Assembly: GCA_017467605.1 (NCBI GenBank)
Contig: JAFUSQ010000027.1
Location: 1 to 33,570, forward strand
Reading direction: 5' to 3'
Origin: a bacterium
GTDB taxonomy: Bacteria > Cyanobacteriota > Vampirovibrionia > Gastranaerophilales > Gastranaerophilaceae
Length of the DNA stretch: 33,570 bases
Shown piece after piece: positions 3,033-9,819 of the stretch (within the stretch, counting starts at the first letter, position 1; each line of letters starts with the position of its first letter). The position numbers and the translations under genes were made by a program. The notes beneath the pieces were generated by a model that saw nothing but the letters and a program-made list of their open reading frames with translations, was not told the origin of the DNA and did not search any database.

Positions 3033-3395
3033 TTGGATATAAATAACAACAGATATACATATTCCCCGATAAAATTTGGGACAAGACTCAATACTGCAAG
3101 TGTACTTGAATCAACAAGTATAAAAATTTTTCACAATGACGGCATCGCAGGCTTTAAAGAAGTTTATGACGCGTTCAACGATAAGCCTATGCGAGGGATA
3201 GGAAATAAAGGATATAAATATTATGTAGAAATAATCGGAGCAAAAATTATGGAAAAATACCCCGAAATTGCAAAGGCAACAGAAGAACTCAAAGAAATTT
3301 ATAAAAATAATCCTTATCTTAAAAAACAAGAAATTGCTAAAAAAATTCAACCGATTATAGACAGATTTGGAGAAACTATTGATATTGTACTATAA
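3033..3395 (+). CDS. Small hypothetical protein
   Basis: 120 residues. The best start is the TTG at 3033, with only a weak AAGG-like site upstream; no ATG occurs before the conserved-looking part. The N-terminus YTYSPIKFGTRL carries a short hydrophobic-FG motif that also appears near the N-terminus of the membrane protein encoded at 24871-25665. The rest is lysine-rich and helical (EKYPEIAKATEELKEIYKNN). No signal peptide, membrane segment or recognised domain. Its stop overlaps the end of the convergent TonB-C-like gene by six bases. Confidence 0.55.
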   Translation: MDINNNRYTYSPIKFGTRLNTASVLESTSIKIFHNDGIAGFKEVYDAFNDKPMRGIGNKGYKYYVEIIGAKIMEKYPEIAKATEELKEIYKNNPYLKKQEIAKKIQPIIDRFGETIDIVL

Positions 3396-4196
3396 TTTTA
3401 TTTTCACCTGTTCTATTTCGTTAAAATCTTTAGGTTTTGAATAGTGAGAAGACTCATTTGATAACATCATAACTGCAGTAACTTTTGCAGTTTTTCGCTT
3501 ACTATTCTGAGGGAAAACCGTTATTGGTTTGTATTGATAACTCTTTATAAGATTTGCAACCTTTTGTTTATCTTCATTTGACAAAAATACGGATTTAACA
3601 ACAATATTACTGATTCTGCCCTCATCATCAACTATAAAAGAATAATAAAACCATGAACCGTCAGCATAATTATCCAACTCCTTAATAAGCATACTGTCAT
3701 CAAGGATTTTATTTACAAAATTACTTTTCCAAGTACTCCAATCAATATTTTTATAAGCATATTCCGGAGGAATCTGCCTTACAGGTCTCGGTTCATAAGA
3801 CTGATTTTGCAAATTTTTAGCATTATTAAGCGCAATATCAAGCTCTGTATCATCTAAATTTTTATGCTGAATTTTTCCGGTATTTGAATAATTCGTATCC
3901 TGAGCGTAATAGTCATTATTTTGATTTGAAAAACTGTTATTTTGGTTAGATATTTGTGTATTATCTTCAAAAGAAATCTTTTTGTCGTGTGATTTGACAC
4001 TTTTATTTGTAATTTTTGACTCCCCAAAATTTATTTTTGTTGTTGAATCATTTACTATTTCGTTACCTTCATTATTTATTTCAAAATTTTGGTTAGTAAA
4101 TTTTACGCGTCGATTTTGTGACGTATCAACAGAAATAACAAAAGCCGTTACAAAAACAAATATAAATATACAAATTATCCAGCCGATTTTATTCAT
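3390..4196 (-). CDS. TonB C-terminal-like protein with N-terminal membrane anchor
   Basis: 268 residues. Residues 4-23 form a membrane anchor, followed by a long Asn/Gln/Ser-rich low-complexity linker (about 25-140). A folded C-terminal region follows (WSTWKSNF..., then GSWFYYSFIVDDEGRISNI, VKSV and LIKSYQYKPI). This pattern of an anchored N-terminus, a flexible periplasm-spanning linker and a C-terminal domain with a [YF]xFxVDxxGxIxxxxV strand matches TonB_C2-type proteins. It lacks the proline/lysine-rich linker of classical TonB. It is the last gene of the three-gene minus-strand operon, nine bases after the membrane protein gene. It probably bridges inner and outer layers of the envelope; the partner is unknown. 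Confidence 0.6.
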   Translation of the reverse strand: MNKIGWIICIFIFVFVTAFVISVDTSQNRRVKFTNQNFEINNEGNEIVNDSTTKINFGESKITNKSVKSHDKKISFEDNTQISNQNNSFSNQNNDYYAQDTNYSNTGKIQHKNLDDTELDIALNNAKNLQNQSYEPRPVRQIPPEYAYKNIDWSTWKSNFVNKILDDSMLIKELDNYADGSWFYYSFIVDDEGRISNIVVKSVFLSNEDKQKVANLIKSYQYKPITVFPQNSKRKTAKVTAVMMLSNESSHYSKPKDFNEIEQVKIKL

Positions 4197-4205
4197 ATAT
4201 ATATT

Positions 4206-5771
4206 TTAATCCAAAGTCGACAATAATTCACTATAATTATTAATTTTAAACATTGTAGCACTTAACATATGAGTTTCTGCAATAAGCAAAGCTGTCGGAA
4301 CAAGTGCTGTCACAATACTCAAAAACATTCCCTGAATATCTCCACCGATTTCGGTTATGAAATAAGAAACGTTCATTGTAAATTCAATAAGAATAATAAA
4401 ACAAGCAATAAACATAACCACACGTTTTTCTCGTTCCAAACTTCTCATAGAATCTAAGCCCAAAACAGTTACCCCATGACTGTTATAGTCATGAAATCCA
4501 TCAAATTTTATTATCTCAGATCCCTTAATCTGCTTCCCAATTGTAAATGCCCTTACAAAAGAGAAAAATGCAAATATGATTAAAAACGTTGCCAAAACCA
4601 AAAATATCGGGCTAAATCTTAATCCTGAAATTCTAACCCAGTTTGCCGCTTCAGGAAAACAACTTGCTAAAGTATTAGAAACCCCGTAAGCCAAAAACGG
4701 AGAAGTCAATATTCCTACAAAAGTTTCTAAAACCATCTTTAATTGATTATTTACAAGATTACTTTTAACTGTATTTATCTTGTTAGGAGTCAATTGATTA
4801 ACATAACCGGAGATGAATTTTCTGTAATTTTTCATTACAGATTCAAAATCTTCCCTAAATTCGCAATTGGTAAGCTGCTGTTTGTAATTTTTAGCTTGAT
4901 ATTTAAAGTAACCGCTTCCGACAGTCACAATCGCCAAAGCCCCAACAAACAACAACGAAATAAACAAAGATGCTCCCAAAAATCCCGGAATAGATTTGTA
5001 ATAGAACAAATTCATTACATAAACTATAAACAAGAAAAATGAGGCAATTCCTATAATGAATTTTTGAGCGATATCCGAATCCCCAAATTTTTTGTGATTT
5101 TTAAAGTCTAAAAGTGAGTATACTCCTTGTTTTAAAATCAAACAAATAGCAATAACAATTGCCGTAATACAAACTAAAAACCCGAAATTAGTTGTTAAAT
5201 TTAAAACAGAGGAAGAATTATCTATCTTAAATCCTAACAAAAAATTTGTTATACCAAAAGAACATACAACCGATAAAATTCCCATAGCAGAATTCAAGAA
5301 AAAACCGGTTATTCCTACAGATTGAATATTATTTTTTAATTCTAAAATGTTATATCCGATTTCTTTGATAATAGCAACCCTTTGCTGTTCAATATCCAAA
5401 TCTTTTTTCGGTTCAACTGCAACTGCACTTATTGGAGTTTTCTGTACATGTACAGAAGCGGAGCCGGGTGCGGAAGCGCCCAGCTCCGCTTCTATTGCTC
5501 CGATAAGTTTTGGAGAAGAAATAGTAAAATTAGGGGTAACTAATATTTTAGAAAAAACTTTATTATTACAAAGAATATCTCTGCTTTGAGAAATATTCAT
5601 CAAAACATAATTATTATATTTTGGCGCATAAACTAACTTTAAGACTTCATTATCAGAAAACTCAGGAATAATAAAATCACAAATCGGACTATTACCAATG
5701 ATAATAGTTGTTAAATCTTCAAAATCTTTTATATTGTCACCATACTTAAGAGTAACTTTCATACAAAGCAT
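4206..5771 (-). CDS. Polytopic membrane protein with FHA-like N-terminal domain
   Basis: 521 residues from the ATG at 5771, which directly follows the upstream gene's TAG, with GGAAGG in that gene's last codons as ribosome binding site. A second in-frame ATG lies at 5762. Residues 5-90 look like a degenerate FHA or YscD-cytoplasmic-type beta sandwich (TIIIGNSPICDFIIPEFSDN, then SQSRDILCNNKVFSK), without the canonical phosphothreonine-binding Arg and Ser/His pattern. After a short helical linker I count about eight hydrophobic segments (roughly 155-180, 192-218, 234-258, 261-289, 345-370, 385-410, 455-475, 488-512). I do not recognise the membrane part. Translational coupling to the VWA gene suggests the two products act together. 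Confidence 0.6.
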   Translation of the reverse strand: MLCMKVTLKYGDNIKDFEDLTTIIIGNSPICDFIIPEFSDNEVLKLVYAPKYNNYVLMNISQSRDILCNNKVFSKILVTPNFTISSPKLIGAIEAELGASAPGSASVHVQKTPISAVAVEPKKDLDIEQQRVAIIKEIGYNILELKNNIQSVGITGFFLNSAMGILSVVCSFGITNFLLGFKIDNSSSVLNLTTNFGFLVCITAIVIAICLILKQGVYSLLDFKNHKKFGDSDIAQKFIIGIASFFLFIVYVMNLFYYKSIPGFLGASLFISLLFVGALAIVTVGSGYFKYQAKNYKQQLTNCEFREDFESVMKNYRKFISGYVNQLTPNKINTVKSNLVNNQLKMVLETFVGILTSPFLAYGVSNTLASCFPEAANWVRISGLRFSPIFLVLATFLIIFAFFSFVRAFTIGKQIKGSEIIKFDGFHDYNSHGVTVLGLDSMRSLEREKRVVMFIACFIILIEFTMNVSYFITEIGGDIQGMFLSIVTALVPTALLIAETHMLSATMFKINNYSELLSTLD

Positions 5772-6437
5772 CTACCTTCCAATAGCATTTAAAAAGCGTC
5801 TTAAAGACTTGCTTGATGTTGTTTCACTGCCAATAATAAGATTATTTTCCCCTAAAACCGGAGATAATTTTTCTTTAACCAAATCTAATTTATCAGGAGC
5901 TGCAAAAAGGAACATCATAACAAAGTTATCAGCTTGATTTTTTACATCAGAGACATCACTTGGCAAGGTATCCCAATTGATTTGCTTGTTAACGTCCCCT
6001 TCATTTTCCAAATCGCCAATGACAACAACTGCAGGCACATAGCCATCTTTTTGCATATTCAAAGCATGATTAAACGCTTTTTTTAGAGATAATCCGTAAG
6101 CCGTTCCATATTCTTTGGCATCATATTGGGTAAATTTTTCCATAGACTTACGAACTTCTGCGCTTGATTGAGGCGAACCTTCATATATAAGATAAGAATC
6201 TTCGGAAACTCTTAAGATTTTAATATGATCTTCAGGATCCAACATTGAACATAACTGCCTGATAAGCATTTTTTGAGCCGGTAAATCTTTTTGATTTGAA
6301 GCTGAGGAATCAACAACAAAAATAACGGCAGCTTTATGGAAGTCATCAACTTTAAGCTTAGACAATCCAAAAACACCCAGACATAATATTCCAAAAAATA
6401 AAGCTGCAAACAATATAACTTTAAACGTATTATTCAT
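5772..6437 (-). CDS. Membrane-anchored VWA-domain protein
   Basis: 221 residues. An N-terminal membrane segment (about 6-25) is followed by a von Willebrand factor A domain. AVIFVVDSSASNQ gives the DxSxS metal-site motif (D43, S45, S47), YGTAYGLSL gives the MIDAS Thr (T112), and VVVIGDLENEGD gives the distal Asp (D142), so the metal site appears complete. VWA domains usually mediate metal-dependent protein-protein contacts. It is the first gene of an operon with the FHA-like membrane protein and the TonB-C-like protein. No strong ribosome binding site precedes its ATG. Confidence 0.7.
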   Translation of the reverse strand: MNNTFKVILFAALFFGILCLGVFGLSKLKVDDFHKAAVIFVVDSSASNQKDLPAQKMLIRQLCSMLDPEDHIKILRVSEDSYLIYEGSPQSSAEVRKSMEKFTQYDAKEYGTAYGLSLKKAFNHALNMQKDGYVPAVVVIGDLENEGDVNKQINWDTLPSDVSDVKNQADNFVMMFLFAAPDKLDLVKEKLSPVLGENNLIIGSETTSSKSLRRFLNAIGR

Positions 6438-7268: not shown

Positions 7269-7556
7269 TTATGCGACTTTGAGATTATAACCTAACGTTT
7301 TCAAAATCTTTGCAAGGGTGTCAACACGTGGAACACGTTTGCCTGCAAAAATGTCATATAGCATTGCTCTGTCAATTCCTGCTTTTTCACAGAAACCTGA
7401 AATACTGTCACGTGATTTTATAACCATTTCTAACGAACGGAAAAATGCATTGAAATCTCCGTCATTAACATATTGTTCTAATGAATCATTCATATATTCT
7501 TTTTGAAATTCTTCATCCTTTAGTTGTTCTAATACAAAATCATTAAAATCTGTCAT
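7269..7556 (-). CDS. higA: HigA-type antitoxin (XRE-like HTH)
   Basis: 95 residues from the ATG at 7556 (MTDFNDF), which has AAGGA eight bases upstream. The ATG at 7565 lies within the ribosome binding region and is less likely. The N-terminal half is helical; the C-terminal half is a helix-turn-helix (ISGFCEKAGIDRAMLYDIFA, then GKRVPRVDTLAKILKTLGY), as in antitoxins paired with Gp49-like HigB toxins. The gene starts within the end of the original toxin frame, so the order is toxin first, as in higBA. It probably binds the palindrome at 7877-7902 and represses its own operon. Confidence 0.8.
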   Translation of the reverse strand: MTDFNDFVLEQLKDEEFQKEYMNDSLEQYVNDGDFNAFFRSLEMVIKSRDSISGFCEKAGIDRAMLYDIFAGKRVPRVDTLAKILKTLGYNLKVA

Positions 7557-7872
7557 TTTTATCATCCTTTATATTTTTTAAGTAAGTCTTTGCCAGTTCT
7601 ATATCTTTTGATTGTTTTGATTTATCACCTGCATTTAGCAATAAAACCAATACATCATTTTAAATTGTGTAATAAATTCTATAACCTTTGCCTAACGTAA
7701 ATCGCAATTCATAAAGATTTGGTTCAATTTGTTTGAAGTCTCCAAAATTGTCATCATAAATTCGTTCAATTCTTCGGATAATTTTTACCCTCAAAGATTT
7801 GTCTAAATCAAATAACCAATCTTTAACAGGTTCTTTTCCGTTTGGTAATTTATAGAATTTTATTTCTTTCAT
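7543..7872 (-). pseudogene. higB: HigB/Gp49-like toxin interrupted by one in-frame stop
   Basis: The first 70 codons read as a RelE-superfamily Gp49-like toxin (KEPVKDWLFDLD, then YELRFTLGKGYRIYYTI) and stop at a TAA at 7660-7662. The same frame then continues for 38 sense codons with the expected C-terminus (NDVLVLLLNAGDKSKQSKDI, then ELAKTYLKNIK) and ends at 7543, overlapping the antitoxin start. The whole frame is 109 codons, the usual length for the family. The TAA replaces what was probably CAA or AAA. So a single substitution truncates the toxin, removing the C-terminal strand and helix that normally carry active-site residues. Alternatives are readthrough or a sequencing error. Confidence 0.8.
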
Positions 7873-9225: not shown

Positions 9226-9819
9226 ATGGAAAATTGCGATATCCCATTTTTTAATATTGATAAAACCGGCAATACCGTTGAATACAAACGGCCTATAAGA
9301 CTTGATCAAGCAATTTTGGAACGGGTCTATTCTCAACGACAAAATAATAATTGCAACGGAATAAGCTTTGATACATTTTTTAAAAATGTAATTAAAGATA
9401 AAAACGTTGCATCAATAATGGTTAAAAAATATCTTGGAAACGGTGTTGCTGCAATTGTTTTTGAAACTGCTAACGGAGATATTTTAAAACTAACGAAAGG
9501 AAACCATTTCCCGCAAGGCAGACCTCATGAAAACTTTGATGTTCCGATTTTCAGACAGGGAAATATTGGAAAAATATTCTACTATTTAGAAGAAAAACTA
9601 ATGCAGCATGACTTAAATTATGGTTTTGTAAAACAAATAAAAGATATGATTAGAAAATGCGGATACAAACCTTCAGATTTAGGAGACTTTGACATACATC
9701 AAATCGGTTTATCTAAAGATGGGAAGCTATATCTTATAGATCCTGAATGCGCAAAATATAAAACAATTTTTCATGCACTATGGGCACAAATAAAAAGAAT
9801 TGGAACTAAAATTCGCTAA
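9226..9819 (+). CDS. Small kinase-like (phosphotransferase-fold) protein
   Basis: 197 residues. YLGNGVAAIVFETANGDILKLT (about 69-90) resembles a glycine-rich loop followed by the ATP-binding Lys (K88). FDIHQIGLSKDGKLYLIDPE (about 155-174) resembles the DxH...N catalytic loop and the DFG-equivalent Asp (D172-P173) of kinase-like proteins. The spacing between DIH and QIG is shorter than usual and Gln stands where Asn is expected, so activity is uncertain. The substrate is unknown. No clear ribosome binding site. It follows the XRE gene and is convergent with infB, 16 bases apart. Confidence 0.5.
   Translation: MENCDIPFFNIDKTGNTVEYKRPIRLDQAILERVYSQRQNNNCNGISFDTFFKNVIKDKNVASIMVKKYLGNGVAAIVFETANGDILKLTKGNHFPQGRPHENFDVPIFRQGNIGKIFYYLEEKLMQHDLNYGFVKQIKDMIRKCGYKPSDLGDFDIHQIGLSKDGKLYLIDPECAKYKTIFHALWAQIKRIGTKIR

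Follow-up and report, generated by a model that had tools for sequence, protein, structure and literature searches.

A VWA, pseudo-FHA membrane and TonB/TolA-like protein triad of Gastranaerophilales as a candidate trans-envelope system with an inner-membrane pair unrelated to ExbB and ExbD

Introduction

TonB and TolA systems are described as being driven by motors of the ExbB/TolQ-MotA superfamily. In Escherichia coli, a histidine in the transmembrane (TM) segment of TonB is important for coupling to ExbB and ExbD (ExbBD).

The closest published precedent for the locus described here is the Agl-Glt gliding machinery of Myxococcus. Its GltG protein joins a cytosolic FHA domain to a periplasmic TonB C-terminal motif within a single polypeptide, and it interacts with the TolQR-like motor AglRQS (PMC3169522, PMC5349195). 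GltG shows that the combination of FHA and TonB-C occurs in force-transmitting envelope machines.

We analyzed a stretch of 33,570 nucleotides (the window) from a 2.19-Mb genome bin of the Gastranaerophilales ("Melainabacteria"). A preliminary description had proposed an operon for a VWA protein, an FHA-like polytopic membrane protein and a TonB-C-like protein, a combination it did not recognize. Its novelty is partial. We found no paper combining FHA domain, von Willebrand, TonB and ExbB, nor one combining Melainabacteria, von Willebrand and TonB, but FHA with TonB-C has its precedent in GltG (PMC3169522). The triad resembles Agl-Glt in joining FHA to a periplasmic TonB-C. However, GltG holds both in a single-TM protein, whereas the triad distributes them over two proteins, the one with FHA having eight TM segments. 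Likewise, Agl-Glt works with AglRQS, whereas the triad operon has no AglRQS-like genes and the system is known here from genome bins alone. The protein architecture and the motor differ, and the triad is not a member of the GltG family.

Results

Organization of the triad

The genes lie on the minus strand in the order VWA (6437-5772), FHA-8TM (5771-4206) and TonB-C (4196-3390). They had been described as tightly coupled, and all three open reading frames are indeed present with minimal spacing. Between VWA and FHA-8TM there are 0-9 nt, according to which start codon is used, and between FHA-8TM and TonB-C there are 9 nt. A GGAAGG sequence overlaps the VWA stop codon. Upstream of the triad, a tRNA-Leu is on the opposite strand. 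At the 3' end, a convergent open reading frame shares 6 nt with the triad. No family in Pfam, NCBIfam or PADLOC describes FHA-8TM or the TonB-like protein of the window.

The VWA protein

The VWA gene (5772..6437, minus strand) encodes 221 amino acids. Pfam and the family alignment indicate an N-terminal TM anchor, a periplasmic VWA domain and a conserved C-terminal AIGR. The anchor covers residues 7-24 (6366..6419), according to the mean hydropathy of 47 sequences. The domain (residues 38-142; 6012..6326) matches Pfam VWA_2 (PF13519) with an E-value of 7e-7 and 30.3 bits, over a curated cut-off of 27. The metal site (MIDAS, DxSxS...T...D) consists of D43, S45, S47, T112 and D142. It is complete in 32/32 window-type orthologues and in only 3/15 paralogues; most VWA proteins of the five-gene type (see below) have lost it. 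Since the site is intact in the former and mostly lost in the latter, metal-dependent binding by VWA is probably of particular importance for the triad.

The aspartate typical of the ExbD/TolR membrane segment is not a trait of this family. Only 1% of 113 VWA proteins have an Asp within the TM window. Likewise, the family profile had no detectable similarity to ExbD (hhalign probability 0.6-0.7%), and sequence searches found no relevant solved relatives. By profile, the domain weakly resembles the TssR VWA of T6SS-iii and the sortase-target VWA families, below cut-offs. A type VI link through the weak TssR_VWA and TagQ matches was discarded, both being below cut-offs.

The FHA-8TM protein

The FHA-8TM gene (4206..5771, minus strand) encodes 521 amino acids by the open reading frame call, and the conserved start is probably Met4. 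An AlphaFold2 (AF2) model from a 49-sequence alignment reached a mean pLDDT of 83. Residues 1-101 (5469..5771) form a beta-sandwich in this model, predicted to be cytoplasmic. The first 15 Foldseek matches of the model are FHA domains. The top match is FHA-1 of Rv1747 (Foldseek E 6e-4; VIA-align Z 11.5 over 95 residues, rmsd 2.4). The family consensus (around IGt.pncDf) has neither the GR arginine nor the SxxH that bind phosphothreonine. We call it a pseudo-FHA domain because these residues are missing.

The membrane domain covers residues 121-520 (4212..5411). The model and the hydropathy agree on eight hydrophobic helices, with a predicted N-in, C-in topology. A cytoplasmic helical hairpin (residues about 290-345) carries the motif E304-R306-D308-F309. 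Among 116 FHA-8TM sequences, the residues inside the TM segments that are at least 95% conserved include N366, T367, E463, N467, P492, T493 and E499. E463 and N467 are in TM7, and P492, T493 and E499 in TM8; TM5 contains the near-invariant stretch PFLAYGVSNTLA.

A comparison with ExbB profiles detected no similarity (hhalign probability 0.4%), and no relevant solved relatives were found by sequence. In the structure search with the whole model, FHA matches filled the list. Scattered sub-threshold Pfam matches of the 8-TM part (Tetraspanin, DUF2207_C), in few of the 49 members, were treated as noise.

Two variants of this protein appeared among relatives. Locus L113 (8265-10139) encodes a relative of 624 amino acids, about 90 residues above the usual length. 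Genus g22 (loci L116-L120, e.g. L117:10386-10685, minus strand) has a stand-alone pseudo-FHA copy of 99 amino acids without the membrane part. By eye, it adjoins EmrA/TolC-like efflux genes in L117 and L119.

The TonB-like protein

The third gene (3390..4196, minus strand) encodes 268 amino acids. In the AF2 model, a TM anchor at residues 3-23 (4128..4190; also seen by hydropathy) is followed by about 90 disordered residues and a C-terminal domain. This domain (residues 146-250; 3447..3761) has a pLDDT of about 95. Its top structural matches by Foldseek and VIA are the C-terminal domain of TonB and domain III of TolA. The structural Z values are middling (4-7), on a list whose top is almost wholly TonB/TolA.

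Sequence gives weaker links. The profile matched only TonB in the PDB, at E-values of 0.3-0.85. There was no match to Pfam TonB_C or NCBIfam tonB_Cterm. By hhalign, the probability was 8% to canonical TonB and 43% to the zinc-ribbon TonB-C protein described below (ZnTonB). With profile links this weak, the TonB assignment of the window protein rests on the predicted structure. By its modeled C-terminal fold, after a TM segment and an extended linker, the protein would be of the TonB/TolA type. Its anchor has no histidine.

The domain reading of the preliminary description agrees with these results. It had proposed a membrane-anchored VWA protein with a complete metal site, a protein of approximately eight membrane helices with a degenerate FHA N-terminus, and an anchored protein with a TonB-C-like C-terminus. 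Both the FHA and the TonB-C folds are present in the predictions.

A five-gene version of the operon

Loci that fall outside the window-type clade usually encode, in this order, a glycine-zipper exported protein, VWA, FHA-8TM, TonB-C and a zinc-ribbon-TM-TonB-C protein. The genome of the window also carries this operon (locus L031). The zinc-ribbon protein passes Pfam TonB_2 (PF13103), and its CxxC...CxC ribbon is present in 61/62 sequences. GltJ of the Agl-Glt complex presumably also carries a zinc-ribbon domain; we found no paper on this ribbon. PADLOC had no match for any of five proteins, and a role in anti-phage defence was rejected.

In the tree, the window-type triads group in a single clade with full support, and every other form falls on the opposite side. 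A small number of loci outside this clade are also reduced to VWA, FHA-8TM and TonB-C. Relative to the five-gene operon, the triad is a reduced paralogue at the level of the genus. Several genomes hold the triad alone, so presumably it is able to work without the other two genes.

In locus L035 (G014:C5), the two operons of a single genome are separated by about 2 kb, which suggests a tandem duplication or later clustering. Next to the five-gene operon, and on the other strand, are genes for exported VWA proteins with a DYSGSM motif or similar (L031:5868-6824, L108:13205-14119 and L111:5553-7439).

Comparison with the canonical TonB/ExbBD operon

The same genomes carry an operon for a glycine-zipper protein, TonB, ExbB and two ExbD proteins (L221:3367-7652). 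The genes for the glycine-zipper protein, TonB, ExbB and ExbD are syntenic in 13/13 genomes from eight families, and this arrangement recurs in all families sampled within the Gastranaerophilales. One ExbD was detected in this operon of the class-level outgroup. ExbB is present in 55/59 relatives, including nearly all triad genomes. By score, TolQ and TolR fit the canonical ExbB and ExbD somewhat better, and the locus may therefore be Tol-like.

The glycine-zipper and zinc-ribbon TonB-C proteins of the new operon have homologues in the canonical one. The new glycine-zipper protein matches the canonical one with an hhalign probability of 100% (E 2e-47), and ZnTonB matches canonical TonB with 97% (E 2e-11). 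Like those of the other profile searches, these E-values depend on alignments built in this analysis. The glycine-zipper protein of the canonical operon is similar to ComB10/VirB10 (2e-6). A 205-aa exported protein upstream of the canonical operon in L221 is a distant glycine-zipper paralogue (hhalign 98%).

By gene order, VWA and FHA-8TM seem to stand in the place of ExbB and ExbD, and no MotA/ExbB-type gene is found among the conserved operon genes. At the profile level (hhalign), kinship of VWA and FHA-8TM to ExbD and ExbB was rejected. The five-gene operon thus looks like a TonB/TolA operon with its motor genes exchanged. Nevertheless, a replacement in gene order is no proof of a functional replacement.

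The arms differ as well. All 13 canonical TonB proteins have a histidine in the TM region, against only 30/110 and 6/62 members of the new arm families, within the same wide stretch of sequence. A search for TonB plug-domain receptors (PF07715) returned none in the genome of the window, which is 96.5% complete; the controls were positive. With no plug receptor in the genome, siderophore-type import is an unlikely job for the triad.

Distribution and inheritance as a unit

The FHA-8TM family is present in 38/59 relatives, and both it and the triad occur in essentially every genome of the same genus. In the order Gastranaerophilales, 193/286 genomes have FHA-8TM. All of these matches but two are confined to one family, and a phylum-wide sample had FHA-8TM in no other family. 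The two exceptions are an operon in genome G051 and a match in G056 that is marginal and broken and that a wider profile did not confirm. The G051 operon (G051:C152, L040) comes from a bin, 66% complete, that belongs to a different family. It is the only intact operon found outside the family and perhaps represents transfer or contamination.

Of 86 distinct FHA-8TM loci, 83 have VWA as a direct neighbor, and all 86 have at least one TonB-C protein. The VWA profile matched in 25/25 FHA-8TM-positive genomes, each of a different genus, and in 0/30 negative ones, eight of them from the same family. Matches to the zinc-ribbon TonB-C protein that included the N-terminal ribbon were confined to the positives. 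These co-inheritance counts come from genome bins. The operon genes are gained and lost together and inherited as a unit, in line with the expectation that they are conserved together. Three loci have no adjacent VWA, so VWA is not strictly required; there, exported VWA genes are nearby on the other strand.

Discussion

The triad shares several traits with the TonB-ExbB-ExbD and TolA-TolQ-TolR systems. It has a single-TM arm with a disordered linker and a TonB/TolA-type C-terminal domain. It also has a polytopic partner together with a single-TM periplasmic one, and a paralogous flanking glycine-zipper gene in its five-gene relative. On the other hand, the partners show no profile similarity to ExbB and ExbD, the TM histidine is not kept and plug receptors were not found. 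We propose, with middling confidence, that the triad is a lineage-specific, paralogous trans-envelope system of the TonB/TolA type, with an unrelated, non-ExbBD inner-membrane pair.

In this proposal, FHA-8TM and VWA would form an inner-membrane complex. The complex would anchor and position the TonB-like arm, and perhaps energize it. The disordered linker and the C-terminal domain would cross the periplasm to a putative partner in the outer envelope; in the five-gene version, the VirB10-like glycine-zipper protein is a candidate for it. On the cytoplasmic side, the pseudo-FHA domain would dock a partner independently of phosphothreonine. The MIDAS of VWA might bind, through its metal, a periplasmic protein or a peptidoglycan-associated ligand. 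We infer that the arm extends as far as the outer membrane, as we do any mechanical or sensory role. The earlier proposal, a machine that spans the envelope, docks in the cytoplasm through one of its domains and extends into the periplasm, is supported, having survived the folding, profile and co-occurrence analyses.

Intact ExbBD in the same genomes could power the arms. The TonB-like arms would then be ordinary clients of TolQ/ExbB-TolR/ExbD encoded elsewhere, with FHA-8TM and VWA merely as scaffold or regulators. The wide presence of ExbB and the locus with TonB and two ExbD genes agree with this, but we consider it unlikely: the new arms have not kept the histidine that all canonical TonB proteins examined here share, and the conserved polar membrane residues of FHA-8TM exceed what a scaffold is expected to need. 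These two features are suggestive of independence from ExbBD, and neither proves ion flow. A bolder version would make FHA-8TM and VWA an ion-driven engine for TonB-type arms, non-homologous to ExbB/TolQ/MotA, with E463 and E499 as candidate residues of the ion pathway. We regard it as decidedly improbable.

The same eight TM segments, with their near-invariant polar and proline residues, might instead form a path for a lipid, glycan or peptide, with FHA-8TM as a transporter or export channel. In that case, VWA and TonB-C would link FHA-8TM to the outer membrane or serve as adaptors for the substrate, and the VirB10/ComB10-like exported protein of the five-gene form would fit such a role. This is doubtful, as FHA-8TM matches no transporter family in Pfam or NCBIfam and the conserved operon has no visible gene for a substrate enzyme. 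A static tether or mechanosensor could also link the inner membrane, the peptidoglycan and the outer membrane, and signal inward through the pseudo-FHA domain. The placement of the domains is compatible with it, with FHA on the predicted cytoplasmic face and, on the periplasmic side, TonB-C and the adhesion-type VWA domain. A separate copy of the FHA domain is also present in some g22 genomes. However, such conservation of membrane residues is unexpected in a passive tether, and no kinase or response gene is seen in the conserved operon. We find this explanation very unlikely.

If the motor genes were truly exchanged for unrelated membrane proteins, there would be a second way of driving force across a two-membrane envelope, or else a motor-free use of TonB arms. 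The gut relatives of cyanobacteria would possibly have a different way to drive or organize the link between their membranes. A family-wide, unannotated gene set of a common gut lineage also gains a testable function.

Two other genes of the window deserve mention. Positions 9226-9819 encode a protein without a Pfam match that, by eye only, has the look of a small kinase fold (ILKLTKG ... LYLIDPECA). Positions 7269-7565 encode an HI1420-type addiction-module antidote protein (PF21716, 6e-11).
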